DNA from: Utricularia gibba
Lineage: Eukaryota > Streptophyta > Magnoliopsida > Lamiales > Lentibulariaceae
DNA: 64,000 bases
NCBI GenBank assembly: GCA_002189035.1
Contig: CM007992.1
Location: 2,480,001-2,544,000 of the forward strand
Direction of reading: 5' to 3'
The translations under genes and the position numbers were made by a program. Positions 19,080 through 58,610 of the stretch are shown here, one piece after another. Below the pieces are notes generated by a model. It saw nothing but the letters and a program-made list of their open reading frames with translations, was not told where the DNA came from and did not search any database. Each line of letters opens with the position of its first letter. The first letter of the stretch is position 1.

Positions 19080-19522
19080 TGCGTGCACGGCACGAGTCAC
19101 TTCACTGTTATCAGCCGGGTGCTTTCAAGACGGTCGAGTTGTGTGTTGTAGAGCAGCAACTTTGTGTGGTTTGCATTGACGGCAGGTTCCCCATTCCAAG
19201 TTCTGCACCTCAAACCCCTAGTCTTGTTTCGCCACGAAGGCAGACACATTTGGGTCATTACTTGGGTAGCAAATTTTAGTAGTGAAGGGACAACTGGTTG
19301 CAATGAACGCAATATTCATCCACAAGGCATTGCCCATGGAATCAAAAACCCAATGAACTTTTTGACGGTTCAGAAGCTTGAAGGACAAACCTTCGTTCAG
19401 TTGCCCAAAAATTGTTGGCGACATGAATTTGAAGCACGATAATCTGGGAACTTTCAGAAAAGCGAGATTTTTGTAGGTTTTCCTGATTTCGGTCACCAAT
19501 TTCCAGTGGTTCCTACTTTGTT
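19080..19522. other. Spacer between PFD6 and the maturase gene
   Basis: 443 bp that must hold the PFD6 3' untranslated region and the maturase promoter. No separate gene is supported. Confidence 0.6.
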
Positions 19523-32582: not shown

Positions 32583-33420
32583 TCATTTTCCAGGAGTCAA
32601 GAAGCGGCGGCCACCGCAGCCGTTCTTGCCCTCGCCGTTGTAGAACATGGCGGCGACCGGGAGACCTAGGCCGTACACGTCAGCGAAATCTCTGGTGTTG
32701 AACTTCTTCCGTTTTCCGAAGAAAGTCACGGTGTCCCACCCCGCCGGTTGCCGGAACAGCACCAGGATCAGACGGTGGATGCCCGTCGCAATCTCCGGCT
32801 TCTCGTAACTCACTTGCTCCTTCCCTGCACACTACTCCCCTTATCACTGTCGTCCAGTGCTAGAAAAAAACAAAAGAACATTGAAGAATGGAATATTTCA
32901 AACCAAATACAGCGCCCGTGGTTCCTGGTATGTCCGTCACCATCCTAAGCAACAAAAAAAAAAAAAAAAACGGAAGAGTTTCAGTTCTTCCCGTTCGTCC
33001 CTGTTTGGTAGCGCGTGACGTGTCATTAAGGGGAATGTAAAGACTGTTGAGGGAGAAAGAGAGAACCAGTGCAAGTACTCCTTGAGATATGGATTGCTAG
33101 GACTTGGATAATCAGCATCAACCATAACCTGCATGTTTACCCGAAAAGTTCCGTAAGAGCATTTTGAGAATGCCTTCTTGTTCTTACTTTGTAATGCTAT
33201 GTTTTCTTACGAGTGTATAGAAGTCTCGAAAGCCATTGCCCCCGATATCAACCTTGGGACGGGAAGCGAGCTGCGAAGGTCTCAAGCTACTGCCGTTACA
33301 CGGGAAGCGTCCATCAATGCAGACACGGAGATCAACCACAGGGACGAAGGGATCCAACACATCTCCGACGATACGGCTCACCACGAGAGGGCTCCGGTCT
33401 ACACTCTTAAACCGGTTCAT
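32583..33420 (-). CDS. FT-like: FT-like phosphatidylethanolamine-binding protein, divergent segment B (copy 1)
   Basis: Member of the FT/TFL1 family of small mobile proteins that act with bZIP FD and 14-3-3 proteins to control flowering or dormancy. Exons on the minus strand are 33211-33420, 33067-33128, 32904-32944 and 32583-32824 (210, 62, 41, 242 nt); the 62- and 41-nt middle exons are the family hallmark. The 184-residue product has [95 protein letters not shown] and a GCGGRR tail. Tyr in EYLHW (FT Tyr85) and Glu in SYEKP (FT Glu109) are FT-type, not TFL1-type. Segment B (PAGWDTVTFFGKRKK) is one residue longer than FT and has Thr for Tyr134, Lys for Trp138 and Lys for Gln140; Gly replaces Asn152. 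DPD of the ligand pocket is DAD. All splices are in phase, and no stop is present. Activator or antagonist function cannot be read from this. Confidence 0.92.
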
Positions 33421-35280
33421 GGCCTTGCACGCTTTCCCACAAAGAAGGGTTGTTGCGGAATGGGGTTTTTGTGTGTGTGTGTTTTCCAGCAGCGGTATTT
33501 ATAGCGATAGGTTTAGGAGGCATTTTGCTGTCTTGGTGGAAGAGAAGCTACAGTCATGTGACGAGGGAGCAAGTGAATGAACGAATGGTTGATAGTTGTT
33601 TTCACCATCCTCTCTTTTTCTTACAACGCCATTGTGACATGACTTGTCATTGCTATTACATTCCAAATTTTTTTGTCGCTTGGAATTCCCACCAAACATT
33701 TCTAGGTCAAATCTGGAAGCTAGTCTACATGGACATCTACCTTCTATTAGCACGCACATCTTCTGTCTCTTCTAAATCACATCATTTTGACTTGTAGGCT
33801 GCGGAGTTAGCCACTTTACATCATCATAACAAAGTTATGTGATCAATAATATAGGGAAAATTAGTAAAGTATCCTAACATGCTCAAATTCATTGTCAAAG
33901 TACCTAAGATTTTAAAAACATTGATGATATACCTGTACTTTCATTTAATCATTTCCAAAATACCTCAATTTTCAGTATTATTACAAATTAATATTAATAT
34001 AGTTAATATTTTTAATAAACATATTAATATACATTTGTATTTATAAAAAATAATCATTTAAATGTTAATAAAAATATATTATAATTATAAATAACTTAGA
34101 ATATACTTCACTTTTAATTTTCGAAACCTGTAATATGATTAATTATGTTTTTTTTGTCAAAATAATAGTTATAAATATATATGAAAAAAATATTATATTT
34201 TAAAATTTGTAATATGAATAAATGCTTAACCAATTGAGTTCAATCTTTCTTGTATTTTATAATAAAAATAATGAGTTTTAGTAAAATAAATATTCACAAA
34301 AAAATAAAATCAATCAACTAAGATTTTAATTTTTTCATTAAATACCAATCAATAGATATGATTTTTATACTTTGTACATTTAAAATAGATATAAAATTTT
34401 AGAAAAAAACACTGTAATTCTATAAATAACGTATATAATTTATACTTAATTATTAATATCATAAAACATCATAATTAACATTTATTTATAAGATATAATT
34501 AAAATAATCAATTTTAGAAAAAAATAGATATATATTTTTTGAAATTTAAGATTGAAATATTTTAATTAAAATCATAAATTATTTTTATTGAAATTAAGGT
34601 ATATTACAAATATGCATATAAATTTGAGGTAGATCATAAATATGTTCACAAAATAAGATATTTTACAAATGTCATACTTCTGACATAGGTAAATCCCTAA
34701 TTCAGTCATATGATATATGTATGAAATCATGTTTGTGTGGAACACATGCATGAGTTGACTTTACATACTTGGTAGCATGTAGATCATCACCTCTCTCTAA
34801 ACGTTTGTCGAATTGAAATCCTTGTCTTTGTACGACACCCCATTTGATAGATCTTGATCTACTCTCCTAAGTCCATTCCTCTAAGCATTTGTTCTGGTTC
34901 TCTCCTTAACATTCCATAACTCTTTTAGGGTGCATCAGTCCAAGTAGATTATGCTGTTTTATCTTTGGTATAGGAAGCAAGAAGGGGCTCACTTATTCTG
35001 CTTGTGACCAGGCAGCTGTGCTCTTAGGTACAAGACCGAGTGCATGGTGTTAACTGTTTTTCTTTGTGGTCATGACACAAGGTATTAGCCACAATTTGAC
35101 AACCACTAGCCATGTTATTGAACACTACCACTACAAGATATATGTGACTAAATCTACCAAAAACAAGGAACTCTAATTTGTTTGCTAGCACCAAACAAGC
35201 TAGACAAGCATTTGATTATTGAAGGAGGTGACAAGTTTGCAATGCTTCCCATATTAATTTGTCTGGCACATTTCATGATC
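33421..35280. other. Intergenic upstream of FT-like gene 1
   Basis: The first ~350 bp are the promoter side of FT-like gene 1. From 33840 to 34700 the DNA is extremely AT-rich, opening TAGGGAAAATTAG and closing AAATCCCTAA, which hints at an old inverted-repeat element, but the match is short. Beyond that is unrecognised debris. No gene. Confidence 0.35.
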
Positions 35281-35282
35281 TT

Positions 35283-36945
35283 TCTTTCTTGCTTCATCAA
35301 TCCAGAATAGGGACTCTATTCACAAGGCTTCAAGTTTCGAGATCTGCTTTAGTACACGTTTCTATCAACATCGTTGCTATCCTATTTTGGACAGTTTTGT
35401 TTACATAAGCGTGATTCTAATAGAAACCAAAAGCTCGATTTCTAGATTCATTTTAAGCTTGAGGACCTTCACTGAATGGCAGACCCATGTGAATTTATTC
35501 CATACACGTTGTAATTGGTCCAATCATTAATTTATTCAGGCCCCATTATCGACCTAAATCATTCATCATTGAATCTCCCAAAGGTGTTGTACCTCTATTC
35601 ATTCACACCACAATGCCAATAAAGAACCCATTGTCCAACATGTATGGGACAAATAGAAAACGTAAGGTAAAAGATGAATGAGAGAGACAACCATTTAAGT
35701 GCTCAACCACTAGCAAATAAAGACAATTCATTAGTCCAATGCACCACCATGTCACTACTTAATCATTGATGAAGCATGATGGAACTTTCAAAAAATCACC
35801 CCCAAAATTTCACTACCAAATAGATCTTAATGGACAATCCAACTATTCAAAAGTCCAAAGGGAAAAGTTTCCTGTTTCCAAACAAAATTTCATCTCAAAC
35901 CAATCATGTTTGAGTTATGATCTATTTTGAATTTTAGAGAAGGGAGAAAATTAATTCTCGTCATAGAATTTTCTTGCATACATATTTTCGCTTAATGGAC
36001 AATCCAACTATTCAATAGTCCAAAGGGAAAAGTTTCCTGTTTCCAAACAAAATTTCATCTCAAACCAATCATGTTTGAATTGTGATCTATTTTGAATTTT
36101 AGAGAAGGGAAAAAAATTAATTTTCGTCATAGAATTTCCTTGCATACATATTTTCGTTTATATATAAAACATTCCATCCATCAGAGCTATATAAAACGAT
36201 GATATTTATATAATATTTTATGATACTTAGCCTCAAATGGAGCATATATATCACATATGCTCAATTTGCTCAACAAATAGTGATGTTGCATTCCCAAACC
36301 TTTAATCACAATTTATATTGATTGTTCTTGAGTCGATATATAATCCACCAATATTGCTTCTTCATCTTCCTTTTCTTGAATATAGTGTCAATCGATACCA
36401 AAATGATAACTTCTCTCATGTATAGTGGAGTTCTTGAGTAATTGAATGATTTACTTATCATCACACCATAGGCATATGGCTTCTTTGCTTTAAGTTCCAA
36501 AGCTCTTAAAAAAAAATATATATTAATTTTACAAACCATCATAGACATCACTCAATGTTCACCCTCCATTTAACTCTTTTTTACATTGTCCTATTGTTTT
36601 CATTTTCAACTATTCACTACTTCTCATATAAATATAGAAGTTATATATTGATCTTCTAGTGTTGACATATCATGTCCAAAAGCTGTTAGAATTGACCTTT
36701 AATTTTGTTTTTGAGTGAGCTAGAAAGAAGAGACATTTTCCTAAACTCTCCTTGAGATATTGCAAAAGTCTCATTGCATATTTGAGTACAATTCTCTTAG
36801 CTTGTCCATATGTTGAGCTAGGATCCAAACACAATAAGTGATATTTTCTTGTAAAGATTGAGTAAATGAGCTTACTCAAGAGCTTTCTATGCTTTGTAAC
36901 ATCTTCAAGTAGAGGGGAAACCTCATCATCCATTTTGTCCCTATG
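35283..36945 (-). repeat. Tandem duplication of Copia debris, unit 1
   Basis: Unit 1 starts at TTCTTGCTTCATCAATCCAGAA and is repeated as unit 2 from about 36966, same orientation, with about 1.69 kb period. Near its right end the minus strand reads VLKYAMRLLQYLKESLGKC then LFFLAHSKTKLKVNSNSFWT, the Copia reverse-transcriptase end ('ILRYLKGTPGKGLFF' region). Inside it, about 165 bp (35830-35995) is itself duplicated at 35996-36160 with few differences. No working gene. Confidence 0.7.
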
Positions 36946-36965
36946 CTATCCAATCTAATTCATTT

Positions 36966-38400
36966 TATCAACTTTTTTTCTTGCTTCGTCATTCCAGAAT
37001 ATGGACTCCACTCTCAAGGATATGTGATGTATCTTCAAGTCTTGAGCTCTACTTTAGTTCACGTTTCTATCAATGCTACTACTATCCTATTTTGGATGTT
37101 TTTGCTTACATATAGGCGATTCTAATAGCAACCAAAAGCTTGATTTCTGGATTCATTTTAAGCTTGAATGGCAGGCCCATATGAATTTATTCCATTTACG
37201 TTGTAATTGGTCCATTAATTTATTCAAGCCCTATTATCGGCACAAATCATTCATCATTGAATCACCTCAAAGGTGTTATACCTCTATGCATTCATAGTAC
37301 AATGCCAATCAAGAAACCATTGTCTAACTTATATAAGACAAATTGCAAAAGTAAAGTGAAAGCTGAGTGAGAGAGACAGCCATTTACGTACTCAACCACT
37401 AGAAAATAAAGAGAATTCATTAGTCCAATGCACAATCAATATCAAACAACAAACACTACTACTTCATTACCGATGAAGCATGATGGAACTCTCAAGAAAT
37501 CACCAATAGAACCCCAAAACTTTACTACCAAATAGATCTTAATGGACAATCCAACTATTCAAACCCCAAAGGGACTAGTTTCCTGATTCCATACAAAATT
37601 TCAATCCAAAACAATCACATTTGACTTATGATTTATTTGAATTTTAGAAAGAGGAGAAAATAAATTATTATCATAGAATTTCCATATATACATATTTTTT
37701 TCTTATATATACAACATTAGATTGATCATGAGCTATATAAGATGATAATATATCTATGCTATCTTCTGACACTTAGCTTCAAATGGAGCATGTATACACA
37801 CATGCTCAATTTGCTCAACGAATAATGATGTTGCATTTCCAAACCTTTGGTCATAACATCTATTGTTTATTCTTGAGACACTATATCGTCTATTAGTATT
37901 TCTTCTTCATCTTCCTTTTATTGAATATAATGTCAAGATGTCAAATTGTTTGTTTTTCTTATGCAAGATGGAGTTATTAATTAAATGGCTTACTTATTAT
38001 CACAACATAGACATGTGCTCCTTTGTCTTTAAGTCTAAAAGCTGTTAAAAAATTACATATCCATTATTTACTAAACATTGCTCGATGTTCGGCCTCCATG
38101 GAGCTCTTTCCTACATTGTTTTGTCGTTTTCATTTCCAATTATTCATTACTTTTCATATATGTACAAATGTTACAAATTGATTTTCTAGTATTGACATAT
38201 TGTGTCCAAAAGCTGTTACAATAGATCCTTAATTTTGATTGTGAATGAGGTAGAAAGAAGAGACCTTTACCTAAACTCTCTTGAGATATTGTAAAAGTAT
38301 CGTTGCATACTTTGAATGCAATTCTCTTAGCTTGTCCATATGCTGTGTTAGAATTTTGCACACAATGAACAATATTTGGTCTTATAAAGGTTGAGTAAAT
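36966..38400 (-). repeat. Tandem duplication of Copia debris, unit 2
   Basis: It aligns with unit 1 in order: the ATGGACTCCACTCTCAAGG start, AAATTTATTCCATTTACGTTG-type block, the 'TCATTAGTCCAATGCAC' block, 'CATGCTCAATTTGCTCAACGA', and 'GTGTCCAAAAGCTGTTA'. The minus strand again contains QESLGKGLFFLPHSQSKL. The copies are visibly diverged, and unit 2 has only one copy of the inner 165-bp repeat. Homology fades near 38400. Confidence 0.7.
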
Positions 38401-39491
38401 GAGCTTCCTTGTTCCTCAACAATTTTTGATCTCTGTCTCATACTTTGAAGCTATAGAAATAGGGTTCTTTGATAATTATAGGGAAGAAACTCAGCATGAA
38501 AGTGTTTCTTCATCTTCTCCCAAGAGTTAAACCTTGGCTTACTCATATGATTTCTGATCGCTTTTGTATAATGCTGCTAGGTAGACACATGATCAGGAAA
38601 TCTTGTAGCTATCAAACTCACCCAATTGTTTTCATGCCCTCTATTCATTTCATCGTAATAATTAGTTGATGGTAGTGACTCAAACTTACTGCAAGTTGGG
38701 GTCCATTGTGCAATAGGATTCTATTGAAATAGTAAGTGCTTGCTAAGTGTCATTTTCTCATACCTTTTAGGTCGTTTTTATGTCTAAATATGATTTAAGT
38801 TGTTTAGTTAGGAATTTATAATATAATATTTAGGTTTTTATCTAGATTAGGGTAATTATCCTAAATCTTATTTTATTTAATATTTTGCTAGTTTTGTTTA
38901 AGTTTTTCTAGAGATGAACATGTGGCAGGAAATGAGAGAAAGAAGGCAGCAGATGGCGACAAAATGGATCTTCCCAAACTCACATTTCCTTAATTTCCGG
39001 AAGATTGTAGACGTCTAATGATGAGCCTTGACGTGTATTACATAGGAGACTCTAACAGATGAAATCATTAGTGTACCAATTTCAGAACAGAAGCTTCCTT
39101 GCAAGTCACTACAATTCACAGCAAGATTAAAGGAACACGAAAACTCAGATAAAGTAGTTGAATTTAGTTTAGTTCAGACATTTAGAATTCAATTTCCAAT
39201 TTTAGTTGCACTTTCAGTTTATCTCTCTAGAGGATTTTCTTCTAGCTTCTCTCTAGAACCTTGTTTTCATTTTCGTTGCTTTGTATGGCCGTTCACAGCT
39301 AGCAACTTTCGTTGTTGGATTGAGATACTCCTAGATCTATGTTTCATTAGTTGATCTTCATTTCTTCTTTGAATATGATCGGGTTCTGTATGTCTTTGCG
39401 CGACTATGTTGCAGTCTTTTTACTACCTACAAGTTTTGAAGAGGAGCAAGTTGGAAAGCATTAACTCATGCCCTTTTGACAAGAGGGAGAC
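38401..39491. other. LTR-like or transposon flank interrupted by Harbinger-1
   Basis: No coding domain. The stretch 38720-39470 has the look of an LTR (mixed composition, T-rich end with CTCTCTAGAACCTTG), but no partner was found. Its right flank continues after the Harbinger insertion at 43156, where GGTTTGACTCTGG follows. Confidence 0.35.
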
Positions 39492-39494
39492 AAT

Positions 39495-39518
39495 GGGGGT
39501 GTTTTATACAACTTATAA
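39495..39518 (+). repeat. Harbinger-1 left terminal inverted repeat
   Basis: GGGGGTGTTTTATACAACTT; pairs with the inverted sequence at 43132-43155. Confidence 0.8.
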
Positions 39519-40104
39519 ATAACTTAACTAAATTATAAGTAGTAACTTATTAGATGTGTGTTTTTTTAACTTATAGGTTATAATTTATAAGTTGTTTATA
39601 AGTTGTATTTTAAAAGTAGGTATATAGTTACTTAATTGTAACTTAAATAAAAAAAATAATGTGAAATTACTTATATGCCCTTATATTAAAATATAAAATG
39701 ATAAAAAATTTACTTCTCACCTTAATCTGCGTGTATTGGGTTGGGTGTGCTTTCTCGATTTTTGATTCAAGACCTTGCGGATGGAATTCCCCAAATCCAG
39801 CTCCTCCGAAGTTCCAGATTTGTTGCTCTCCACCCCATTTTCTCGTTTCCAAGATTTTATTTTTTTGTTGCCTTTTGTTTTTTCGTTTTTCTTCAGTCAC
39901 ACTAGACTGTGTCGCTTCCTGTTCTGCGAAGGGAAGCAGAAAGCACTTTTTAGATTTTATGGGATTCTAGCAAAATTTCTTTACAGTTTGCTTCTGCAGT
40001 TAGATAGATTTGGCTTGAGGCATAGCTTTACAATCCCTTAGTATTTATTTTTTTTTTAATTTTGCTGCTGCAATTTAGTGTTTTGTTGCTTCTACAGGGA
40101 ACAC

Positions 40105-41220
40105 ATGGATAAACAAGTACCATCTTCGCCTACTTCTAGTGCTACTTGGGACGAAAATGCTACTCACATATTTTTGGAAGCTGGTGCACATCAAGTTTAT
40201 GCAAATAATATGCTTGGAACATGTTTTAATTCTTAGGGGTGGCATGGGATTTTGAAAGAGTTTAATGAAAGGACGGGGCGTCGTTATGTGATGAAACAGT
40301 TGAAAAATAAATTCAACTCAATGAAAAAAGATTGGTCCATATGGATTAGGCTTCAAAAGACAACTGGAAGTGGATGGGATGACAACTTGGGAGTCATAAC
40401 CGGAACAGATGAATGGTGGTCAAGAATGATTAAGGTGATTTTTTTTTGTATTTGTACTTATATATAAATGATAAATACATTATGACTCAATTATTTTGTA
40501 TTTTCTAGGAGATGCCAGGATGCAAAAAATTCAAGACCACTCCACCTATTTATTCTGAATTGCAAAATGTTATCTTCACACCAGTGACAGCAACAGCTGA
40601 TTCGGCATGGAATACAGGAAATGGCAAGGTCCCTCCACGAGCGCCTTATCGTATGTCGACAGGGGTTGATAGCTCTACTAATGATGGTGATGCATCTGTT
40701 GACTTAGATAGCATAAACATCCAAGATGATGACTTTTTCAATAATATTGATATTGGAATGAATGAACAACCATCATTTTATGATAGTCCACAACAGGTAT
40801 GTTACTATCTAAATTATTTTACTATTATATAAATTTACTATTATATGAATTTACTTCTAATCTGTTAATGTTTAGGGAAGTGTGGAAGTTGGTGCGAGCA
40901 GTGCTAATGTGGGAAACAAACGTCAAAGAAGAACTATTAAAGAAACAGGAGAAAAGTTGGCTGAGTCAATTGTTGCTTTAACAAATTAGTTAAAGAGTGG
41001 ATCTTATTCATCTGTGCCTCAAAGACAAAAGGTACCCTCGATTGCAGAGTGCTTAGATATAGTGAGGGGAATTCCAGAAGCACGAGAGGATCCAAGTGTG
41101 TTTGGAGCTGCTGCATTGGTGTTCGGCAAGACTATTTATCGTGAAGCTTTTATGAGTATGACAAGTAATGAAGAGAGGTTGTCATTTATCAGAGCATATA
41201 AGAGTGCTAATCTAAAGTAG
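40105..41220 (+). pseudogene. Harbinger-1 ORF1: Myb/SANT-like DNA-binding protein with two nonsense codons
   Basis: This is the second protein of PIF/Harbinger elements, which binds DNA and helps bring the transposase to the termini. Three exons, 40105-40434, 40509-40796 and 40876-41220, join through in-phase GT-AG introns. The first exon encodes the trihelix-type domain: SSATWDENATHIFLEAGAHQ, GILKEFNERTGRRYVMKQLK, KKDWSIWIRLQKTTGSGWD. The last exon carries the conserved tail SIAECLDIVRGIPEAREDP and NEERLSFIRAYKS. Two in-frame TAG codons break it: 40236-40238, just before GWHGILKEF inside the DNA-binding domain, and 40987-40989. Otherwise the frame is open, so the damage is recent. This copy is not expected to make a working ORF1 protein. 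Confidence 0.85.
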
Positions 41221-41473
41221 TTTTCTTTAATATTAGTAGGTGAATTTGAAATGTAGTAAGAACATTGCTTTCTTTAAAGTTGAACCATTTCATGTGGATG
41301 TCTGACTGAATGTGATTTTACGTAACAATTCCATGTGTTTTCTGAATCAATTCCATATACTTTATTAGCTGTATTTGCTTTTCAACGACAATTGCATGTG
41401 ATTTCTTACTAAGATTCCACCTTTTTCATCTATAAAATCAAGGCTATGTATCATTTTCAAACACAATGCATCC

Positions 41474-42694
41474 ATGTCTTCTTCCAGCAACTCTTCCCCA
41501 CGTACCGATAATTCTCAAGATGAAGGTGAAACTCCAAATGCTGAAATAGTCTCTGTTATAGCGACACTAGCGCAATCCATTCTTGAATTTTACCAATGTG
41601 CTTTTGTAAGAATGCCTTGTCGAGATAGAGAGTTATCTGGAGTTGCATGGTTAAAGGGTATACTGGAAGGCCATTGGATTCGTTCATATCAACTACTTCG
41701 AATGGAACGAGAAACATTTCATAGGTTATGTAGTGTTCTATATGAACGCTATGGTTTAATAGCCACACGCACAGTCTTTGTTGAGGAACAAGTGGCAACG
41801 TTTCTCTTGGCAATGGGTCTGAAATGTAGTAACCGTTTGCTTCAAGAATGGTTCCAACGTTCTGGATATACTGTAAGTCAAAGTTTTCGTGCAGTTCTTG
41901 ATGCTTGTGCAAATATGGCTTCTGAATTTATAGTTCCAACGAGTGATATGTCGACTCCCCCTGCAAAAATAAGAAATGATTCTCGATTTTGGCCTCATTT
42001 TCAAGATGCGGTTGGTGCCATTGATGGTACTCATATTCCTGCGAGAATTAGAAAAGAAGATAGACGTCCTTTTTTTGGTCGATACCGTGAAGCCACACAG
42101 AATATTTTGGCAGTATGCGACTTCAATATGCTGTTCATGTTTGTAGCTTCAGGATATGAAGGACAAATGCATGATAGTTCAATATTATCACGGGTTATGC
42201 ATTCACCCGAAAATAATTTTCCATTGCCACCACCAGGTAAGTATTACCTTGCTGATTCTGGATATATGAATACTACATTTTTTTTGACACCATATAGAGG
42301 TCAAAGGTACCACTTGGAAGAGTTTCGTGCTAATCCATGGATTAGAAATCCTACAGAGATGTATAATTATCGACACTCTTCGCTACGTTCTGTAATTGAA
42401 CGATGTTTTGGAGTATGGAAGGCAAAATTTGTCATGGTTAATAGACTTACTTGGGGATTTTCATGGCAAGATCTAGTACTTATTGTACCAGCAACTATGG
42501 CAATTTGCAATTTTATCAAGAGAGTTGATGCAAATGATCCGGATTTCTTACGTTTTGAAGTTGATAATTGGACTCCACCATATAATCCTCAAACAGCTCT
42601 ACCAGCAGCAGAAGCTTTTGCATCATCAACTCAAGATGGATATATGACTGCTTTACGTGATGCAATATGTGCATCAATGAGTAGAATAAATTAA
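41474..42694 (+). CDS. PIF/Harbinger transposase (DDE nuclease), intact
   Basis: Single-exon 406-residue protein that cuts and joins transposon DNA, acting in the nucleus. It has an N-terminal acidic/Ser-rich stretch, a helical region (LLRMERETFHRLCSVLYERY; VATFLLAMGLKCSNRLLQEW) like the helix-turn-helix part of HARBI1 relatives, then the DDE_Tnp_4 catalytic core. The catalytic triad is visible: Asp184 in GAIDGTHIPARI, Asp261 in YYLADSGYMNTTFF and Glu309 in SVIERCFGVWKAKF, with 47 residues between Asp261 and Glu309, the spacing typical of the family. No stop or frameshift is present. It follows the broken ORF1 on the same strand, as in other PIF elements. It may still be active if an intact ORF1 protein is supplied from another copy. 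Confidence 0.95.
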   Translation: MSSSSNSSPRTDNSQDEGETPNAEIVSVIATLAQSILEFYQCAFVRMPCRDRELSGVAWLKGILEGHWIRSYQLLRMERETFHRLCSVLYERYGLIATRTVFVEEQVATFLLAMGLKCSNRLLQEWFQRSGYTVSQSFRAVLDACANMASEFIVPTSDMSTPPAKIRNDSRFWPHFQDAVGAIDGTHIPARIRKEDRRPFFGRYREATQNILAVCDFNMLFMFVASGYEGQMHDSSILSRVMHSPENNFPLPPPGKYYLADSGYMNTTFFLTPYRGQRYHLEEFRANPWIRNPTEMYNYRHSSLRSVIERCFGVWKAKFVMVNRLTWGFSWQDLVLIVPATMAICNFIKRVDANDPDFLRFEVDNWTPPYNPQTALPAAEAFASSTQDGYMTALRDAICASMSRIN

Positions 42695-43131
42695 AAATGT
42701 CTCATAATATCAAGTCTAGTTTATCTATTGTTGTTTTCAGAGTTTATATAACTCAATCTATCGTTTATTATGCATGTTATTACGATTGAATGAGATTTGT
42801 GTTAATATTATTTTATTACATATTACAATTCATATAACTATACAAATATTAATAAATACATTAAAATATGAAAAAAATTAATTATTAATTTGTTACATAA
42901 CTTTAAAACATTGATTTATAATTATACGAAAATAATAAATATAAATTATATTATTAAAAACATTTAAATGAATATATGGGTATTTTAGACTTTTGTTTAC
43001 AAATTCTGAAAGTTATATCAAACACTATTAACTTTTACTTATGACTTTTATAAATAAGTTAAAACAAACAACTTCTACTTATTTTTTACTTTAAATTAAC
43101 TTCTACTTACTCTTACTTATAAGTTAATTTA

Positions 43132-43155
43132 TCATAAGTAATGTAAAACACCTTC
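43132..43155 (-). repeat. Harbinger-1 right terminal inverted repeat
   Basis: Inverted, it reads GAAGGTGTTTTACATTACTT, matching the left end. Confidence 0.8.
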
Positions 43156-43158
43156 AAT

Positions 43159-44254
43159 GGTTTGACTCTGGCCGTATGTCAAGATCAGTGGACAAATAGT
43201 GACCTCGTATCTGGACTCATTAGGCCATTGGCAGCACTCAGGCATTTTGACCGTGAGGATATGATGGTAGAACCACTTATCTTTACATTCGTCTTAGGAG
43301 GAGCAACATCGGCTATTCCCATGACTTCTTGCAAGAGAGTGTAAGGGAGGGTAGTCAATTCCTTACTCCTATAACTGAGCACTCAAGAAAATTAGAGAAT
43401 AGTGAAAACACGACAAATGTAACTGGGCAGGATTCCAATTCTAGGAACAATCTCTTTATTTAAGGTTTATTGTTTATGTTTATTTCTGTTGTTTGTTTAC
43501 AACCCCTTACTTCCTCACTCAAGTTTCATCATTTATGTTTCTTGCACCTTTTACTTCCAAACCCATTTACAAATCGTAACAGTTGTATTTAGTGTAACTT
43601 CACCTTTCTCTAAAAAACAACTTTCTGTGTTCGACACTCATACTATGCATTTATTTTTTACGAGTTTTAAAAATATTAAAATTTTTTTGTGGAAACGACG
43701 CGCATCAACGCTTCATTCCTAACATGAGTTGCTTCATTCGATGCTCCATGGAAAGGAAATTTCGGTTCCTCAATTGCATTGGGTGTGCAAAGCCCCGTAC
43801 TCATCCTACCATTGACAACCTGCCCTCCTTGTAGTGCAAAGCTGGTGTAATTCCAGGGCATAAAATTTAAAACAAGCTTTCCAAAGTTCGTTATAAACTT
43901 GAAACTAGTCAAGATTCCAACTATAGCAAAGAACAATGTATCACTCCAAAGAGATGATATCTTAGAAGTCACAATCTCTAGTTCTCAGAAAAAGAAATAG
44001 AAAGCCAACAAGAGGTCACAGCCTCACAAATCTCAACTAATAAGAATATTAAGCCAACTAGAAGTCACAACGTCACAAGTCACTATTAATAAGAAACTTC
44101 AAAAAAATTAAGAAAATAAAAAGATAAACACTCCAGCAATCCCTATTCATCTCAACTCGCTAGCATTCCTAAAACAAGACTCGTGGTAAGAGCATTCCTT
44201 AGAATCCCACCACTAGAGCTCTTGGAAAAAAGAATTACCTCCAACCCTAATTCT
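43159..44254. other. Transposon debris right of Harbinger-1
   Basis: No gene. At 43440-43700 a short leader-like segment (CTGTGTTCGACACTCATACTA then an AT block) resembles the end of the dispersed leader repeats. The rest is unrecognised. Confidence 0.4.
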
Positions 44255-44705
44255 TGTTGAAATGTTTGTGTTGAGCTGCCAAGAGAATTGGGCTTATTTT
44301 GCCCAATTCCTCCTACATCACATCTCTCAAGACCTGATCCTTATGATAGTATATATTGATGATATTTTAGTAACAAGTGCCTCATTGGAAGTTATACAAA
44401 ATCTTAAATATTCTTTGCATCAGAAATTTACAATAAAGTATCTTAGTGCTGCAAGTTATTTTTTGGGGGTATAAATTCAACAAACTAATCAAGGTATTTT
44501 TCCTTTTGAATAGACATAGTTAGACAGTATCTTTAGGTAGTTTGATCCTTCTGCTACATTGAAAATTGTGGATACTCTAATACCTAGAAATTTTCAATTT
44601 CTTGTCATTGGTTCCAAACCATTTCATGATATCGATCAGTATAGAAGCTTAGTTGGGAAACTTCTTTATCGTGGTTTTACCCAACCGACATTGCATATTG
44701 TGTGC
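44255..44705 (+). pseudogene. Decayed Copia reverse transcriptase fragment
   Basis: The plus-strand frame reads IVYIDDILVTSASLEVIQNL, containing the YxDD catalytic box as YIDD, then HQKFTIKYLSAASYFLGV-stop; further on SKPFHDIDQYRSLVGKLLY matches the downstream Copia region ('YRSLVGALQYLT'). Stops and frame changes follow. It ends near 44705 where an inverted leader-like repeat begins. Confidence 0.85.
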
Positions 44706-44907
44706 AATAATGATAAATGAAAATGTTTAAATATCGTTGTAATAAAATTAATTTTTCATATCAAATAAATTTATAAGCTCTAATTTTCACAAAATACAAA
44801 TTAAACACAAAATAGGCAGTGGAATTCGGGGTTGATCACAAGGAGTTGGTACTTGCAAAGTGTTTTAGCAGATGTAGAATTCAGAATAAATATTGTTCTT
44901 AGTCTAA

Positions 44908-47170
44908 GGATGTAGTCTGCATTAATTATTTTTTCACTTATAACTTAAAGTATAAGTTAAAAAATTTGATTTACATACTACTTCAACTTCTACTTTTTTT
45001 AACTTTTACTTTTACTTTTACTTCTTAACTACTTATTCAATTTTACACTACAATCAACTTATTTTTTGACTTATTTCATAAGTCACCAAAATGTTACTTA
45101 TTTTCATAAGCAACTACTTCTAAACAAATTTCCATCTCTACCCTTTGTAGAGTAAAACACATCATTATTCATAATAAATTAACCCTCTTGAATTGGCTTG
45201 GATGTGATATCATCACTAACCCAGCCCACTAGGGCTAAAGATGCAGAAGATTGCGCCGAAGCAAGGAGGGGTCATTTTTTTATTTTTGGCATTCCTATTG
45301 ATTGGCGACGAAGGCTCCGTAGGACTACTCAATCTTCCCCAATTCCAGGGTTATTTTGCAGCAGAAAACGGTCCCATGGAAATATTTTGGCTGTTATTTC
45401 AATTATTGCTTGCTTTTGAGCCTCCATTACCTTCGTTGTGTTATCATTCTTGTTGTTATAGAGTTTTGCGAAAATTCTATGTTTTGGATGTTTTTAACCC
45501 TTTAGATCTTCATTGAATCTATATTGATAGTGCACAATGCTATATTAGTTTTTTACATATGCGTTATTGAGTTATATATGTTTTCATAATTTTTTGTATC
45601 ATATACGGAAATTTTTTTATGTCTATGTGTTCAAGTAAACCCATTAGCAATTTAAGCTGCAGACAACCTTATAATGCTTTCTTTTTGTGTCATATGAGGA
45701 AATTTTCTGATGCAAATCATACTAATTTATCTTGCATTTGTGTTATTTATGTTGCATTTGTGTTATTTCACAGATGGAAAATAACGGGGGCAAAGTTCCA
45801 GTTAAAAGAAAGGCTATAAAAGCCAAGTAGGATACCAATAGAATTTATGTTATTTTGGAAGCAATGATTAATGAGATTGCCAAAGGTAACCGACCAACAA
45901 CAACATTTAGGCTTGTTGGTTGGGAGAATATAAAGAACGCCGTCAACCAAAAATGTCAAACTGACTACGACATGAAGTGCATCAAGAATCGCCACTATGA
46001 GCTTCGCACTAAATGGACACTTTGGAAAAAATTGGTTGATAGGTCTGGTATTGGATTTCATCCAAATGAGACTATAAATATGGATATACAATGGTGGGCT
46101 GATCATATTTATGTAAGTTTTCTTTACTTGAAATGAATTTTTATGATGCAATGTTATTTTTAGTTTTTCGATATCAAACTGGTCTTTTGTGTTTATTTTC
46201 AGAAAAATCCAGCATTCAAAACGTTTGAAGATAAAACACTACATCAAGAGTTATTAGCTCAAGTATTTGATCCAATTATACATTATGGTGTGAAGCGCTA
46301 TGTTTGTGACATTGATATGCGATTCACGTATATTATGGCTGGTTATAAAGGCATAAGTCATGATAGTAGAATTCTGAGAGATTGTCCAAGCGACCCAAAC
46401 CTCAACTTCCCAACCATCCCTACTGGTAAGTATTATGTTGTCGATGCATGCTTTGTGAATACAACAGGTTTTATGGCACCATATTGACGTGAGAGATATC
46501 ATCTACCAGACTTACGTCGACGTACTCAAGGAGGTTACAAGAATAATCGTGAATGGTTTAACCATCGACATTCTAGTCTTCGATGTGTTATTGAAATGTG
46601 TTTCGGTGTCTGGAAGAAAAGATTTCATATGGTGAATGATGTTCCAACAAATATAAAATTTAAGCATCAAGTAAGAATTGTTGAAGCCACAATGGCCATT
46701 CATAATTGGTTGCGTCATGTTAATGCGGATGATGATGGTTCTCAATTGTCGAACTTACAAGATGGAGAGCATGGTGAAGAAGAGGATGTTGACCTTGAAG
46801 AAGAAAATGAGGATAAGGGTATGGACCAACCCATGGATATTCTACGAGAATCTATTGCGGATGATTTATGGGCAGCTTATAATAGAAGAAAGGTGTAATG
46901 TAATGAATTCTTGCAAGTTATGTTTCTCATTTCAATGCATTATCTTTAACATAATTAAACATATGCTATTTGATATGTAAGATAAGGATATAAAAATAAT
47001 TTACAATCTACTTATACTTATTTATAGTCTACTTCCAACTATTTAAAAATAACTTTTACTTAAACAATAAACATCGCACACTACTGCTACTTATTTGTCA
47101 TTTACTTATCTAATAACTTCTACTTACGAATTAAGTAGAAGTTATGAAAAAAGTCACACAGACTATACCC
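44908..47170 (+). mobile_element. Degenerate PIF/Harbinger transposon (Harbinger-2)
   Basis: The left end GGATGTAGTCTG and the inverted right end GGGTATAGTCTG form terminal inverted repeats, each flanked by TAA (44905-44907 and 47171-47173), the canonical target duplication. Subterminal ACTTATAA-type motifs are dense at both ends. The 2263-bp element encodes one broken frame in which the ORF1 DNA-binding domain is joined to the C-terminal half of a transposase. It is inserted in an inverted leader-like repeat. Confidence 0.85.
45774..46898 (+). pseudogene. Harbinger-2 fused remnant: DNA-binding domain plus transposase C-terminal half
   Basis: Exon 45774-46112 encodes a Myb/SANT-like domain (YVILEAMINEIAKGNRPTTT, then WENIKNAVNQKC and NRHYELRTKWTLWKKLVDRS), with TAG at 45828-45830 where Trp is usual. 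After an intron (donor GTAAGT, acceptor TTTTCAG) the frame runs on from 46203 straight into the transposase core: MRFTYIMAGYKGISHDSRIL, GKYYVVDACFVNTTGFMAPY, a TGA at 46485-46487, then CVIEMCFGVWKKRFHMVNDV and an acidic tail ending at TAA 46898. The region with the first catalytic Asp (AIDGTH) and the transposase N-terminus are missing. An internal deletion therefore fused ORF1 and ORF2; the product cannot be catalytic. Confidence 0.85.
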
Positions 47171-47949
47171 TAAGCTTAAACTAATCGTGGTAAGCAAGTT
47201 CAATGCGTGAAATCAAATCTCAATGTGAAAGTTAACAAATACTGGTTTTAGTACAAAGTAATACTAAAAAACCTAAGTGTATGTAGGTGATGTGGTGCTA
47301 AGATGTCTAATTTAATTTACCATGTTCCTATATACCTTGGTCATTCATCATGTTTTCGACCAAGATAGTCCCTAATATGATCACTAACTTTGTAATTAGG
47401 TCTAACTGCATGCAAAATATATAGAATTAGGTCTATCCAATTATATTGGTTCTATCCTAGACTAATATCTATTGTCCTCGCCTTGATTTGTTGGTCCACT
47501 TTTAAATCAGAAATTTGAATTATGAAACTACTTGTTTCCCCCCTTAGGTTTACCTAAGAAATGATAGAAACAAATGCTAAGAAACAATGACCAATTATAT
47601 TATAAACCCTAGCCCCACATCATCATTCTACACCATAAGGCATTCCCAAGGTTTAGCTACTCATGTATAGAAAATAAAGCAAGATTTCATAGTTATAAAC
47701 TGAAGAAAATATCCCCCAACATTGTCAAATAAATAGCCCATTAAAGTAAAGTTTTTCAGCAAACTAAGTAAATAAAATGTTCTCTTTCCATCTACTACTG
47801 TTCACAGTGTGGAACAATAGCGCTGAATTGATCTTGGTAGTGTTCTTGAGGATGAGAGTCTTCTTCACGAGAATCTCTTTCTTCTCCTTTTCTGTTCAGT
47901 GTTCGTGTTCTTGGAGGAGCCCTTGTGTGTGTGCTCCTTTTTACACGAG

Positions 47950-47964
47950 CCCCCCCCCCCCCCC
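47950..47964. repeat. C15 homopolymer in a C/T-rich tract
   Basis: Fifteen consecutive C bases followed by CCCT repeats to about 47980. Length is likely to vary between reads. Confidence 0.9.
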
Positions 47965-48559
47965 TCCCCTCCCTCCCTCCAATTCTCTCACTCCTATAAA
48001 AATATCTCCTTTACTTTACTCCAATGCACTATTCCTGATACCAATACTGTTCTTGGCCTGAACTTATAGACTACAGGCAGCAAAACAATACTCTTTGCTT
48101 TGGATATTGTGCCTCCTATGACTTGATTCACACATCTTTCAGTCCGATTTTGCTACTAATCCTCCTACTAAACTTAATTAAATATTAATAACAAAAGGTG
48201 GATTAAATCAAAGAATTTAGTCCACTTTTCAATATAAATACGAAATTAACATAAATAATACACAAAATATTAAAACCACACAAACCTAACCTAAACTACA
48301 ATAAAACATCATAATGTTGCATTATAAAATATTAAGAAAATATGTGGCATCAAACAACTATCTCAATTTATGCATGATTCCTATGACATTCATTGGAATA
48401 TCAACAAACATTTAGTAGCTTATACGAAAGTCACTCCTCATTATGATTTATATTATAATGCTGCTACTACTAGTAGCTTACTAGAAATTATGTAACGCTT
48501 TTTTCCCCTCTTATGTGTCGCTAGCCTCCCATATATTTATATCCATCCCCAAGGGTTGG

Positions 48560-48990
48560 TTCAATATAATTGATCTAGGAGGGGGAAGTAGTGAAACTCA
48601 CCTTAACAATCCTAATTAGAGGTAGATCAAGACTTTGTTTATTAGATGTTTGATTTATGGTTTGTATGAGCATGTTTAATGATAAGCTTACATCCATTAG
48701 GAGTCCCAAGTCACCACTCATCTCATCTTAGGTACAACCGAGTTCAAAATTTTATTGCTTTCCTTTATTGCATTTTATCGTAAGTCTGGCTTAATTCTAG
48801 TTAAGACTAAATCTATCAACGTGACACTGATTGCATGCATTGACAATCACATTACAAGAACATGCTCTTCGTTTTTGAAATACTATGCTCATAATTATAT
48901 TATTTTTGAATATGTATTAGGTTTATAAATTTTATTTGATAGGAAAATTTGCAACTTAACGATATTGCAATATTTTTCGTTTATCACTCG
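48560..48990 (+). repeat. Dispersed leader-like repeat, copy D
   Basis: It is the copy closest to A: AGTAGTGAAACTCACCTTAA, 'CAATCCTAATTAGAGGTAGA', 'TGATAAGCTTACATCCATTAGGAGTC', 'CTAGTTAAGACTAAATCTATCAACG' and the end TTTTTCGTTTATCACTCG, which copy A ends with too (TTTCGTTTATCACTC at 947-962). Confidence 0.65.
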
Positions 48991-49432
48991 TCGTGCCAAC
49001 ACACCAACCATGCCATGCCAAAACTCCATGACCATTCGTGGATAACCTCTATGTTTGGGGTCTTGTCCCTAGCGCCTAGCGCTGGTCACCCGAAGATTGA
49101 GGCCAACGTTCACACTTGCACTCAGTGCTATCCATGCCTCCAACTGTTGCCGGAAAGGGGCACACGAACATAACCCACCACATTCTATCACAATGGAACC
49201 ATGAAAATCAAACTCCTTACCTTCCTCTAGACTTCTCGAGTCCGAATCTCAATCACCCACCACAAACCATGTAGCACTACTCTCGCCTGTGCGATCCTCA
49301 GTTATTGTATATTTTATGGCTCTCACCTCATCTCTTGGAAACCAAGAAGCAGAACACCATCTCTAAATCATTTAAAAGGCTGAATATCATGTCATGAGCA
49401 TCATAACTGCTGATCTTTAATGGTTATCCTAT
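48991..49432. other. Unrecognised, downstream of repeat copy D
   Basis: Mixed-composition DNA without a recognisable domain; probably retrotransposon interior. No gene. Confidence 0.35.
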
Positions 49433-49690
49433 TTGTTGGATGATTTCGAACAAGAACTCACTAAACTGATTTCGCTATGGTGTGATAACACCTCTGCTGT
49501 TTCCATTGCTTCAAACCCAATCTTTCATAAATGCACTAATCACATTGAGGTAGATTGTCACAATGTTCGTAATTTATATAAATCAAATTTATTACATTCT
49601 CACCAAGACTCTCTAATCAAATATACATCAAACTTTTTTTTGCGAACTTGGCCTTCTGCCTCAGGTAACCGCCAAGTGTGAGGGAGGTTT
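49433..49690 (+). pseudogene. Copia RNase H C-terminal fragment
   Basis: The frame LISLWCDNTSAVSIASNPIF followed by HKCTNHIEVDCHNVRN matches the C-terminal end of Copia RNase H ('[24 protein letters not shown]'). It then loses the usual 'QLADIFTK' end by frameshift. It may belong to the same original element as the fragment at 44255-44705, with which it shares strand and order. Confidence 0.8.
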
Positions 49691-50239
49691 GTTGGTGAAT
49701 CAAATGATGCTACTTGAACATGAAATAGAAGATGATGCTATTGATCATGAAGCTATTGGTTTAGTATTCTATCCACCGTAGATGGAACAATGCTATTGGG
49801 TTTGATTGGTCAGTGGGCCAGTTTTACCTTTGTTTCCTTTATATCCATTCCTATAGCAACCCATATCTTTTGTGTGAGTCACGCAATATAAAACTTGACT
49901 TTTTCCCTTTGCTAGATTTTCTCTTGCAGATTCGTATGAATCTTATTCTGGGTTCTTTGTTGCTCATCTTATAAAGAAGTCTCACACTCTATGCTCTGTT
50001 TGTACCTAAGGGGAGTTGACTCAAATACCATATCCACTACTTATACAGAGCCCCAACTAAACATGTCCTTATTCATGCATACCCATTGGGCTAATGAAAG
50101 TATATTCATTTGAAGAAGTGTTTCATAACATTACTAATGATTCACTTTGCTATTCTTAGATACATTTCCTTAAATCAACAGAAAAACATTTAAGAAATTC
50201 CCTATCACATAGAAGAAGGTCTTTGTAGACTAACCATAC
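49691..50239. other. Non-coding, possible LTR after the RNase H fragment
   Basis: It follows the RNase H end and may contain LTR sequence (ATATAAAACTTGAC near 49890 is TATA-like). No boundary could be fixed. Confidence 0.35.
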
Positions 50240-50790
50240 AGTGTCTAAGATCTAATGCCAGTTGGGGAGTTTTGCTCTTCTATGCTTGAAACCTATCTTC
50301 AAAAACATGGAATCATATACCATAAAAAAATAGCTCATTCACAAAAGCAAAATGACATAGTAGAGAGGAAAACCAAAAGCATCATAGGTATAGTTAGATG
50401 TTATCTTCTTACCAAATTTCCTTTGGGTTGAAGCAGTTTCCACCACCATTTATTTATAGAATATATTATCACATTGTGTTCTAGATGAAAATACTGCATA
50501 TGGCAAATTGAAAGGGTTTCTACCATCTTACAATCAAATAAAAATATTGGACGTACATTGTTTGTTATCTGAGTTACCTCCACAAATAACAAAACTTAAG
50601 GATAGAGGAGCAACATAAATCTTTTTTAGATACTCAAAAGTAACCAAAGGGTATATTATTTATGATCTTGGACTCAAAAAGTTACTTGTGGGAAAAAGTG
50701 TGAAGTTTGATGAAATATATCATTGGAATTGGAATTTCGATTGTTTTCCAAATTCGCTTGCTCCATTATCCTAATTGTGTGAAGAAAGAA
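50240..50790 (+). pseudogene. Copia integrase C-terminal fragment
   Basis: In shifting frames: HSQKQNDIVERKTKSIIGIV (the integrase 'QQNGVVERKNR' motif with the catalytic Glu), RCYLLTKFPLG, TKLKDRGAT then FRYSKVTKGYIIYDL (the 'KLDDRGVKCIFLGYS...KGYRLYD' region), and VKFDEIYHWNWNF (the 'VVFDEESSWDW' region). Several stops. It is a separate dead Copia copy. Confidence 0.82.
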
Positions 50791-50939
50791 CAAGTGAGAC
50801 CACTGTCATATTTTTGTGATCTCATGAAAAAAAAAATACAAGGAGAATAGGGTTCTAGTGCTTGAGTATTGACTGCTATCAAGGCTAAATTTCCTTTGAG
50901 TTGCAAAAGTGAAGAAGGCCAAAGTAAGGAGACTACTAT

Positions 50940-51150
50940 AAGATCTAGAGATGAGATACAATATGAAATTTATTTTAGGAGAGATAATAAATCAGCTTGA
51001 ATATCATGTGAGAAGTTTAGAGAGAGAAGAAAATGAATTCTTATCATAGCATTTCTATGTGTACACATTTCACTTATATAGATAACATGAAAATGATCAT
51101 AAGCTATAGAAAACGATCATATTTCCATATTAGCTTTTGAAATGATTGCT
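50940..51150. repeat. Copia-debris fragment shared with the 35-38 kb tandem units
   Basis: 'AGAGAGAGAAGAAAATGAATT', 'ATCATAGCATTTC', then 'ACACATTTCACTTATATAGA' match 36085-36220 and 37630-37750 (TTAGAGAAGGGAAAA..ATTTTCGTCATAGAATTTCC). It is a further copy of the same non-coding retrotransposon segment. Confidence 0.5.
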
Positions 51151-52374
51151 TACAGAAGATGTCAAAATGTAGAGATTTCAAAGTTATGTATGATTTCAAA
51201 GCCCTAAGCCCAAATATAGCAGCCATAAGTTGAATAGATATCCAAAAGGATTGTGTATGCTGAATCTAGCTCATCTAGTCAACCAAAACTATGTCAATAA
51301 CATGTTGATTCGACTCATCATGGGCCCTTTTATTTAATAGGGCTTAGTTGATAGGTATCAAAACGAGGTGTAAGAAAAATCAATACTTTTAAAATATCTA
51401 ATTTGGTTGATTTTTTATTAAAATAAAAATCATATCTTTTTTGTAAAGAACATTTTTACTTTATTTAAATTACATGATTTTTAATAAAATTATTTATAAA
51501 AATACATATTTTGGCTATCTTAGATTTTTATTAATCACAAATCTAATATCATCTTTCAGTATCCAAGCTATCAACACAAGCGCTTGGAAGCTGTCAAAAG
51601 TTGGTCTCGTGTTCAAATGGCATTCGCCCACGACAAGAAATCCGCGACTTGGAAAAATTGTGGATGTGATAGACCAAACAAAAGTATCTAAACGTGGATG
51701 TAAGAAGCAAAGGTATCCTGTGAGTGGCGGATGAGGTGAACATTCAGATATTCACGATTCCCGCAAGTTGCTCACAAATCAAAAAAAAATTCTCTCATTC
51801 ATTAACCATCTTGAACATTTGAAACCGCGAAAGAAATTTTGTCAATTCTCATTACAAAACAAGTGTTAAAAGTTATTATTTCGACTACAGCGCAGGCGGC
51901 CACAGACCTCGAGTCACTAGCTTTATGTTCCTTCCTGTCCATGCCATCAACTAAGCGCTACCGGGAAAGAAAGCACTTCAAAAGGCATTTGATATTCCAA
52001 CACGAGTGCTAACAATAATATTCTTGAGGATTGGATCTCCCTTCATCGTCCATGCACAGGGAAGTCAAAAGCGTAGGTGCCAATTGTATCATAGAATTCA
52101 GCATCTTGAAAATCGACTTTGCAGATCTTTTAATTGTAAATCTAATCCAACACACACTTCTTCATAGAAAAAGGGGAGAAAATGCATTGAATCATTTTGC
52201 CTTTTTTCTTTCTGTGGGTTTGTAATGTTTTCCCTAATAATTGTTCAAGGACGAATAAAGTGGCATACTTTCCATGGATCACTAGCAGGCTAGTTGATGG
52301 TAGGTCATTGCTATGCCTTTAAATTTTCCCGACCTTCCCCGGAGACAACATGCAAGTTGAAGGCTGTTTAGAGA
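51151..52374. other. Intergenic upstream of FT-like gene 2
   Basis: No gene is supported. The last few hundred bases must contain the promoter of FT-like gene 2. An 'AGGACTTGGATC'-like motif is not enough for a call. Confidence 0.4.
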
Positions 52375-53196
52375 ATGAATCCCTCTAGAGAAAGGAACCC
52401 GATGGTGGTGACTCGCATTGTCGGGGAAATCCTGAACCCCTTCACTCCTTCCCTGGATCTTCGTGTCTCTGTTAATGGGAAACTCTTGGTGAATGGAGGA
52501 AACTTGAAGCCTTCACAGCTTGCTGACTCCCCGAAGGTAGAAATCGGAGGCGATGATTTCCGAAAGTTCTACACACTGGTAAGCATCCATCTCCATTTCT
52601 GAAACAAAGGTATTCATGTATTGATACCTAAGCTCGAGGCCTGTTTACATTATTGTTTCAATTTAGCATTATGTATGTCTTCGGTAAGTGGAATGAGTTG
52701 ATGCAGGTTATGGTGGATGCTGATTCCCCAAGCCCGAGCAATCCTCACCTCCGGGAATACTTGCATTGGTGGCAGCTAAACTCCCTTTGCTTTTCGTATC
52801 AGCAGGTTAAAAATAAGCCATTTTTTTGTATTGATGTTGTAACTTTACTCGTTTAGGCTAGTGACCGACATTCCGGGAACCACTGGGGCTGCATTCGGTA
52901 TGTTGCAATATATTTTTCTTTCACCAAAAACTTCGCAGTATTACTGCATGATGCACAGTTAACACAATGCAGGAAAAGAAGTAGTGAGCTACGAGAAACC
53001 GCAGCTAGCAGCGGGGATCCATCGCCTTGTTCTGGTGCTGTTCCAACAACCCGGATTCGACACGGTGAATTTCTTTGGGAAGAGGGCCAACTTCAACACC
53101 AGAGACTATGCTGAAATCTACGGGCTTGGATCGCCAGTCGCAGCCATGTTCTTCCACGGACAAGGCGAAAAGGGCTGCGGCGGCCGCCGATTCTAA
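52375..53196 (+). CDS. FT-like: FT-like phosphatidylethanolamine-binding protein, divergent segment B (copy 2)
   Basis: Four exons, 52375-52578, 52707-52768, 52857-52897 and 52973-53196 (204, 62, 41, 224 nt), with the family's 62- and 41-nt middle exons and in-phase GT-AG introns. The 176-residue product is almost the length of FT (175). Motifs: [58 protein letters not shown]-type core, [54 protein letters not shown] and a GCGGRRF end. Tyr85 and Glu109 (FT numbering) are kept. Segment B reads [14 protein letters not shown]: Tyr134 is Asn, Trp138 is Lys, Gln140 is Ala, and Arg130 is Phe; Gly replaces Asn152, and FRQ is FQQ. It shares DAD for DPD, FFGKR and [12 protein letters not shown] with copy 1, so the two arose from a common divergent ancestor. 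The young Copia element starts 236 bp after its stop. Confidence 0.92.
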
Positions 53197-53432: not shown

Positions 53433-53914
53433 TGATAGATATTGCATGATATGGGTGTAGGAAATATGACAGTGAAGATATGAGAGTTTTGGAGTGGATG
53501 AATCTTTCTGAAGCTCAAGATATTGTATAGAATGTCAAGAGGAAGCACACACTTTTACAAATCCTGATACCCTTTATATAGAAGGCGAAAAAACTAGCCG
53601 TTGCCTCCTTGACCGTTGGATGTATTTGTATGGTTCATAGCTACTTAGTCGTCGGATATGCTTCTCCAGAGCATGTGAGGGACAGTGGGCCGTGAAGTGT
53701 TGCCTTTGGACTGGACTTGCCTCATCTAATGGGCTGTAGCCCTTTGAGATGAGTAGGGCCCAGCATAATCAAGCTTACCCCTGCAGTGCGTTGCTTCTCC
53801 TTCAGCGGGATTTCCTCCTCACACAGAACTTCTCCAGATCGCCGGACTTGTTCTTCCTCTCTTGTTGATCCTTGATATCCGCTGAAGTCTCAATTTCATC
53901 CTCATGCTCTAACA
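53433..53914 (-). repeat. Copia 3' LTR
   Basis: It is 482 bp. Differences from the 5' LTR: A at about 53480 (G in the partner), one missing G at about 53820, and T at about 53904 (C in the partner). The TATA-like TTTATATAG lies within it in both copies. The gag-pol frame continues into this LTR. Confidence 0.95.
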
Positions 53915-58568: not shown

Positions 58569-58594
58569 GCAAGAAGGAATGTGAAGGTAGTGTT

Positions 58595-58610
58595 CACGTC
58601 GGGTTCACCA
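58595..58610 (-). other. Primer binding site of the Copia element
   Basis: TGGTGAACCCGACGTG directly follows the 5' LTR on the minus strand. TGG pairs with the CCA end of a tRNA. It is not the initiator-Met site (TGGTATCAGAGC) common in plant elements; I could not identify the tRNA. Confidence 0.65.

Follow-up and report, generated by a model that had tools for sequence, protein, structure and literature searches.

FLOWERING LOCUS T (FT) is conserved and low-copy in most eudicots. Lineages that have multiplied the gene and remodelled its loop are known chiefly from the grasses and a few crops; divergent FT paralogues of this kind have been described in beet, tomato, onion and grasses. According to previous work, the contrasting functions of FT and TFL1 depend critically on E109, W138, Q140 and N152 (PMC9865765; AtFT numbering is used throughout), Y134 and W138 are reported to be essential for the inductive function of the beet FTs (PMC7816854), and changes of W138 and Y134 mark the repressor FTs (PMC9865765; PMC7816854), in which the LYN triad is also variable (PMC7816854). 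The sugar beet floral repressor BvFT1 carries Y134N, G137Q and W138Q (PMC9865765). R130 is one of the five residues reported to be critical for the binding of FT to 14-3-3 and is kept even in the repressor HvFT4 (PMC7816854). Competition for 14-3-3/FD is the presumed mode of action of the repressor paralogues described so far (PMC7816854, PMC10920429), and BrrFT4 competes in such a way that the FT-FD interaction is blocked (PMC10920429). In potato and onion, FT paralogues have non-flowering roles, and the core-eudicot FTs were recovered as one clade in which no major duplication was seen (PMC8408984). No paper on the FT genes of Utricularia gibba was found in a literature search of the main texts of open-access articles.

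In the window analysed here, a stretch of 64,000 nucleotides of U. gibba DNA, two complete four-exon PEBP genes were predicted, oriented head to head and separated by 19 kb. The gene models were built by hand from the DNA sequence, their only source, and were then checked by script. Copy 1 lies on the reverse strand at 33420-32583 (exons 33420-33211, 33128-33067, 32944-32904 and 32824-32583) and encodes 184 aa; copy 2 lies on the forward strand at 52375-53196 (exons 52375-52578, 52707-52768, 52857-52897 and 52973-53196) and encodes 176 aa. The whole feature is bounded by the stop codons of copy 1 (32583) and copy 2 (53196). Both models are splice-consistent and devoid of internal stops, and their introns are all GT-AG and short (about 75-130 nt). 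Exons 2 and 3 measure 62 and 41 nt in both copies, as is typical of the family and expected for the FT clade, and the same lengths are present in the other PEBPs of the genome wherever both exons could be modelled. The predicted proteins matched Pfam PF01161 with 32.1 bits (copy 2) and 28.2 bits (copy 1) for a cut-off of 24, and the closest solved structure was AtFT (1wkp) for copy 1 (E 8e-62) as well as for copy 2 (E 2e-65). The motif TATAAATA (33496..33503, reverse strand), about 80 nt before the start codon of copy 1, was noticed by eye as a candidate TATA box, an assignment that is suggestive only.

To place the pair in the PEBP family, a maximum-likelihood tree was computed from 21 proteins, twelve of them references. 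Four of these references, AtFT, Hd3a, TFL1 and CEN, were verified against PDB chains; the only differences, at most three each, lie at Cys residues that the crystallised proteins replace by Ser or Leu. In this tree the two copies were monophyletic (100/100) and stood on the FT side, split from TFL1/BFT/MFT with 99.2/100 support, and a position as sister to TFL1/BFT was rejected (AU p = 0.011), in agreement with the FT-like identity proposed for both genes in the earlier note. When only the four PDB-checked references were kept, the FT side was recovered with 97.8/97 and the AU test against TFL1 sisterhood was weaker (p = 0.11). The PDB similarities point in the same direction, with 223 and 212 bits to AtFT versus 175 and 176 bits to TFL1. 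The pair is accordingly grouped with FT, and several attachment points inside FT are compatible with the tests: attachment within core FT or with the PPEWRH-type genes described below costs 0.2 log units, a sister relationship to the canonical FTs of the same genome gave AU values of 0.31 (21 proteins) and 0.051 (four-reference set), and grouping with tomato SP5G costs 11 log units (AU p = 0.19). The stem branch of the pair is about 0.46 substitutions per site.

The residues are compatible with this placement. Both copies are 59-60% identical to AtFT and possess the Tyr85 and the GxHR motif of the FT clade; the TFL1-clade traits, namely His85, a TFL1-side position and an RR C-terminus without GGRR, are absent, Tyr85 and GCGGRR being retained. 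E109 is also kept, a residue that is not diagnostic of FT and occurs in TFL1, CEN and BFT. On the other hand, nine FT-type florigens share 93 positions without any variation, and at 14 of them both copies of the pair differ. In the alignment, segment B (approximate limits 32695..32748, reverse strand, in copy 1, where QPAGWDTVTFFGKRKKF replaces QLGRQTVYAPGWRQNF; 53044..53098, forward strand, 16 residues, in copy 2) contains 6 such changes among its 11 FT-invariant positions, and the concentration of shared changes in this segment exceeds chance (hypergeometric p = 0.0012). Given in the order copy 1/copy 2, Y134 is T/N, W138 is K/K, Q140 is K/A and N152 is G/G, exactly as the earlier note had read them, including the combination in copy 2 of the BvFT1-type Asn134 with a changed W138; the two FT-like genes with shared segment B alterations that it described were likewise found, and are intact. 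Both copies, as FT-clade proteins substituted at 134 and 138, show the sequence mark of BvFT1-like repressors.

The alterations are not restricted to the activator loop. Beyond the residues listed in the earlier note, P72A, P113I/L, L128P, R130W/F, A135F, P136F, C164G and R166G are found in both copies, G137 is unchanged, and P72 and P113 are invariant across all 19 other aligned PEBPs. The DPDxP anion-site motif conserved in activators reads DADYP in copy 1 (exon 2, 33067..33128, reverse strand) and DADSP in copy 2 (exon 2, 52707..52768, forward strand), and P72A may alter the anion pocket. The LYN-type triad at 150-152 has become VYG and IYG, and the C-terminal QRE is altered in both proteins. 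Of the five critical 14-3-3 contacts, R62, T66, P94 and F101 are retained in both copies and R130 is replaced by an aromatic residue. Copy 1 has in addition lost D60. R119, G171 and GIHR are retained as well. What makes the pair unusual is that DPDxP and R130 are lost together, and the combination of changes observed here was not found in the literature searched.

Compared with described systems, the pair resembles BvFT1 in its FT-clade position, in the conservation of Y85 and in the change of W138, with Asn134 as in copy 2. BvFT1 differs by G137Q and W138Q (PMC9865765), where the pair keeps G137 and has Lys at 138; R130W/F, DADxP, A135F/P136F, Q140K/A and N152G go beyond BvFT1. The likeness is one of residues. 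HvFT3, HvFT4 and other grass FT paralogues share with the pair an altered P-loop, changes at 134 and 138 and a variable LYN triad. However, HvFT4, which delays flowering, keeps R130 and the remaining 14-3-3 residues (PMC7816854), and the grass FT clades radiated within the monocots only (PMC8408984, PMC9847362); the pair, by contrast, belongs to a core eudicot. Tomato SP5G, a floral repressor, is like the pair an asterid FT paralogue with a rebuilt segment B, but its loop is a different one, with a three-residue insertion, and its DPDxP is kept; SP5G presumably has Cys at 130 and would also be without R130. Canonical FT and Hd3a share with the pair the exon structure, Y85, GIHR, R62, T66, P94 and F101, and differ from it in segment B, the LYN triad, R130, DPDxP and the C-terminal QRE.

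The assembly (100.09 Mb in 516 contigs) was searched for other PEBP genes with copy 2, AtFT and Pfam PF01161 as queries, together with gene models. Seven further plant PEBPs were found. Two are canonical FTs, one intact with an unchanged APGWRQN loop (C317:478k) and one with an MPGWRQH loop and a single-base frameshift in exon 2 (C451:2652k). Two, at C304:460k and C451:4262k, represent a second divergent FT type whose loop reads PPEWRH, in which G137E and Q140H are found and Y134 and W138 are retained; exon 1 of the C451:4262k copy is interrupted by an in-frame TGA. The others are two TFL1-like genes (C505:2705k and C414:3187k) and one MFT with frameshifts (C414:802k). The frameshifts at C451:2652k and C414:802k are probably indels of the long-read assembly.

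A membership of monocot clade II/III was considered in view of the tree shape and the GC-rich exons. The AP3 orthologue of the genome ends in SDLTTFPLLE, which is the euAP3 motif of core eudicots. The mitochondrial COX1 (C515:185171-185896) has Cys-Cys in place of Leu-Ser, a change present in every examined Utricularia (PMC9590445). These two characters rule out the monocot assignment, and the monocot and basal-angiosperm framing of the earlier note does not apply, the host being the core eudicot Utricularia. At several further sites the same COX1 has Ser or Pro where Phe or Leu is expected, which resembles RNA-editing sites in their unedited state. Plastid rps19, used as another taxonomic marker, yielded no plastid hit. 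The published U. gibba genome has 101 Mb, four chromosome-level sequences and 518 WGS records (PMC6982007); TTTAGGG telomere repeats were found at the extreme start of contigs C1-C3, and contig C4 is probably U. gibba chromosome 4.

The two copies are 70.5% identical at the protein level. Synonymous divergence between them is close to saturation (dS 1.47), dN is 0.21, and omega is 0.14 (95% bootstrap 0.05-0.23). Constraint is strongest in exon 4, where segment B lies (omega 0.10). Neither copy carries a stop or a frameshift, defects that affect three of the seven further PEBP genes in the assembly. The pair is therefore a single lineage, duplicated long ago and held under purifying selection, and the simplest view is that the shared changes are older than the duplication products' divergence. 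The idea of relict or unexpressed genes heading to decay, with changes due to relaxed constraint, could call upon the long stem branch and upon the transposable elements around the pair, which are of the copia and PIF/Harbinger types. It is nevertheless improbable, since an omega whose upper bound is 0.23 and open frames maintained across a dS of about 1.5, where several paralogues are broken, are not those of decaying genes, and since the changes are concentrated in segment B, within the most constrained exon, and not spread over the protein. A pseudogene or an artefact is ruled out by the intact frames and the omega value.

We infer, with good support, that the pair has lost florigen-activator function, because Y134, W138, Q140 and N152 are critical residues (PMC9865765, PMC7816854) and the LYN triad is variable in repressors. 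The pair probably blocks or replaces the normal flowering signal instead of carrying it. The direction of the new function is less supported than the loss of the activator, and antagonism cannot be read from residues alone. A pair of subfunctionalised activators, both still promoting flowering and specialised by tissue or season, would be in line with the retention of Y85, GIHR and overall similarity to FT, yet this reading appears hardly probable in view of the simultaneous change of Y134, W138, Q140, N152 and R130, the first two being those reported as essential for induction in beet (PMC7816854). From the proposal of the earlier note, an FT antagonist or a subfunctionalised lineage, what stands is a diverged and retained pair changed at repressor-linked positions; antagonism is only a possible role, and "neofunctionalised" fits better than "subfunctionalised", because the shared changes most simply preceded the split and unmodified FT genes are present elsewhere in the genome.

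The reading ranked first, to which we give about even chances, is an attenuation of FT signalling by a non-activating FT mimic. At least one intact canonical FT, with the APGWRQN loop at C317:478k, is available as a target, and the competition exerted by BrrFT4 offers a precedent by analogy. The inverted pair would be an FT lineage neofunctionalised in U. gibba, in which the shared changes (segment B, DPDxP, R130, LYN triad and QRE) would have come first, followed by divergence of the copies and then by purifying selection. Neither copy would be able to act as a normal florigen activator. The two proteins would occupy FT partners, FD-type bZIPs, possibly through the remaining 14-3-3 contacts R62, T66, P94 and F101, and the bound pair would not present the segment B surface required for activation; the signal of the canonical FT genes would in consequence be dampened or redirected. 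A simple competition of the BvFT1 style is weakened by the loss of R130 and the broken DPDxP in both copies, and a BvFT1-like antagonist is only one option since DPDxP, R130 and QRE are all altered. With an aromatic residue at 130 in both copies and no D60 in copy 1, competition through 14-3-3 may be impaired; these losses may even abolish 14-3-3 binding, and with it competition.

A serious rival, ranked second, is a neofunction outside the florigen activation complex, in which the pair would bind neither 14-3-3 nor FD and would act with other partners, for example in shoot or stolon development, trap development or stress. R130W/F, P72A, R166G and P113I/L, all at activator-conserved sites (R130 being conserved also in HvFT4), in proteins that are still constrained, are compatible with such a role, and the potato and onion paralogues are examples of non-flowering functions (PMC8408984). 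We consider it less likely than the mimic; against it, four of the five critical 14-3-3 residues are kept together with Y85 and GIHR. A more specific form, an FT-lineage pair independent of both 14-3-3 and the DPDxP anion pocket, long selected and tied to the way Utricularia cycles through growth or to its unusual body without roots, is slightly more doubtful still; if true, independence from 14-3-3 would amount to a new PEBP pathway separate from it. A constrained eudicot FT lineage in which the activator loop, DPDxP and a 14-3-3 contact are changed together constitutes a natural test that separates the sites needed for antagonism from those needed for any PEBP signalling, and the pair is a candidate regulator in a plant with a highly unusual vegetative and reproductive architecture.

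Concerning the surroundings of the pair, exons 2 and 4 were the only parts in which a repeat scan of 30-56 kb showed similarity between the two loci, recorded as inverted repeats I1 and I2. Synteny through the window neighbours (maturase, LHC and CS-domain genes) revealed no paralogue of a neighbour near any other FT locus. PIF/Harbinger-type DDE_Tnp_4 transposase ORFs or remnants lie between the copies at 41402-42691 and 46164-46895 (+), and a Copia-type LTR retrotransposon coding region (53805-58604, reverse strand) begins about 600 bp beyond the copy 2 stop. Upstream of copy 1, 35328-38409 is a diverged direct duplication with blocks about 81-90% identical at an offset of 1.5-1.7 kb, and it holds a nested 165-bp tandem repeat. 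Further away, a single-exon maturase-like gene at 19487-21580 (forward strand; type II intron maturase domain, open frame of 698 aa) has a 55% identical paralogue at C328:1284536-1286407. The interval 4001-12000 is very AT-rich, with 23.5-25.5% GC versus 31-44% in the remaining window. An LHC gene is present at 2642-3358; at least six LHC genes that are 86-91% identical to it stand in tandem at C3:3490604-3502550.
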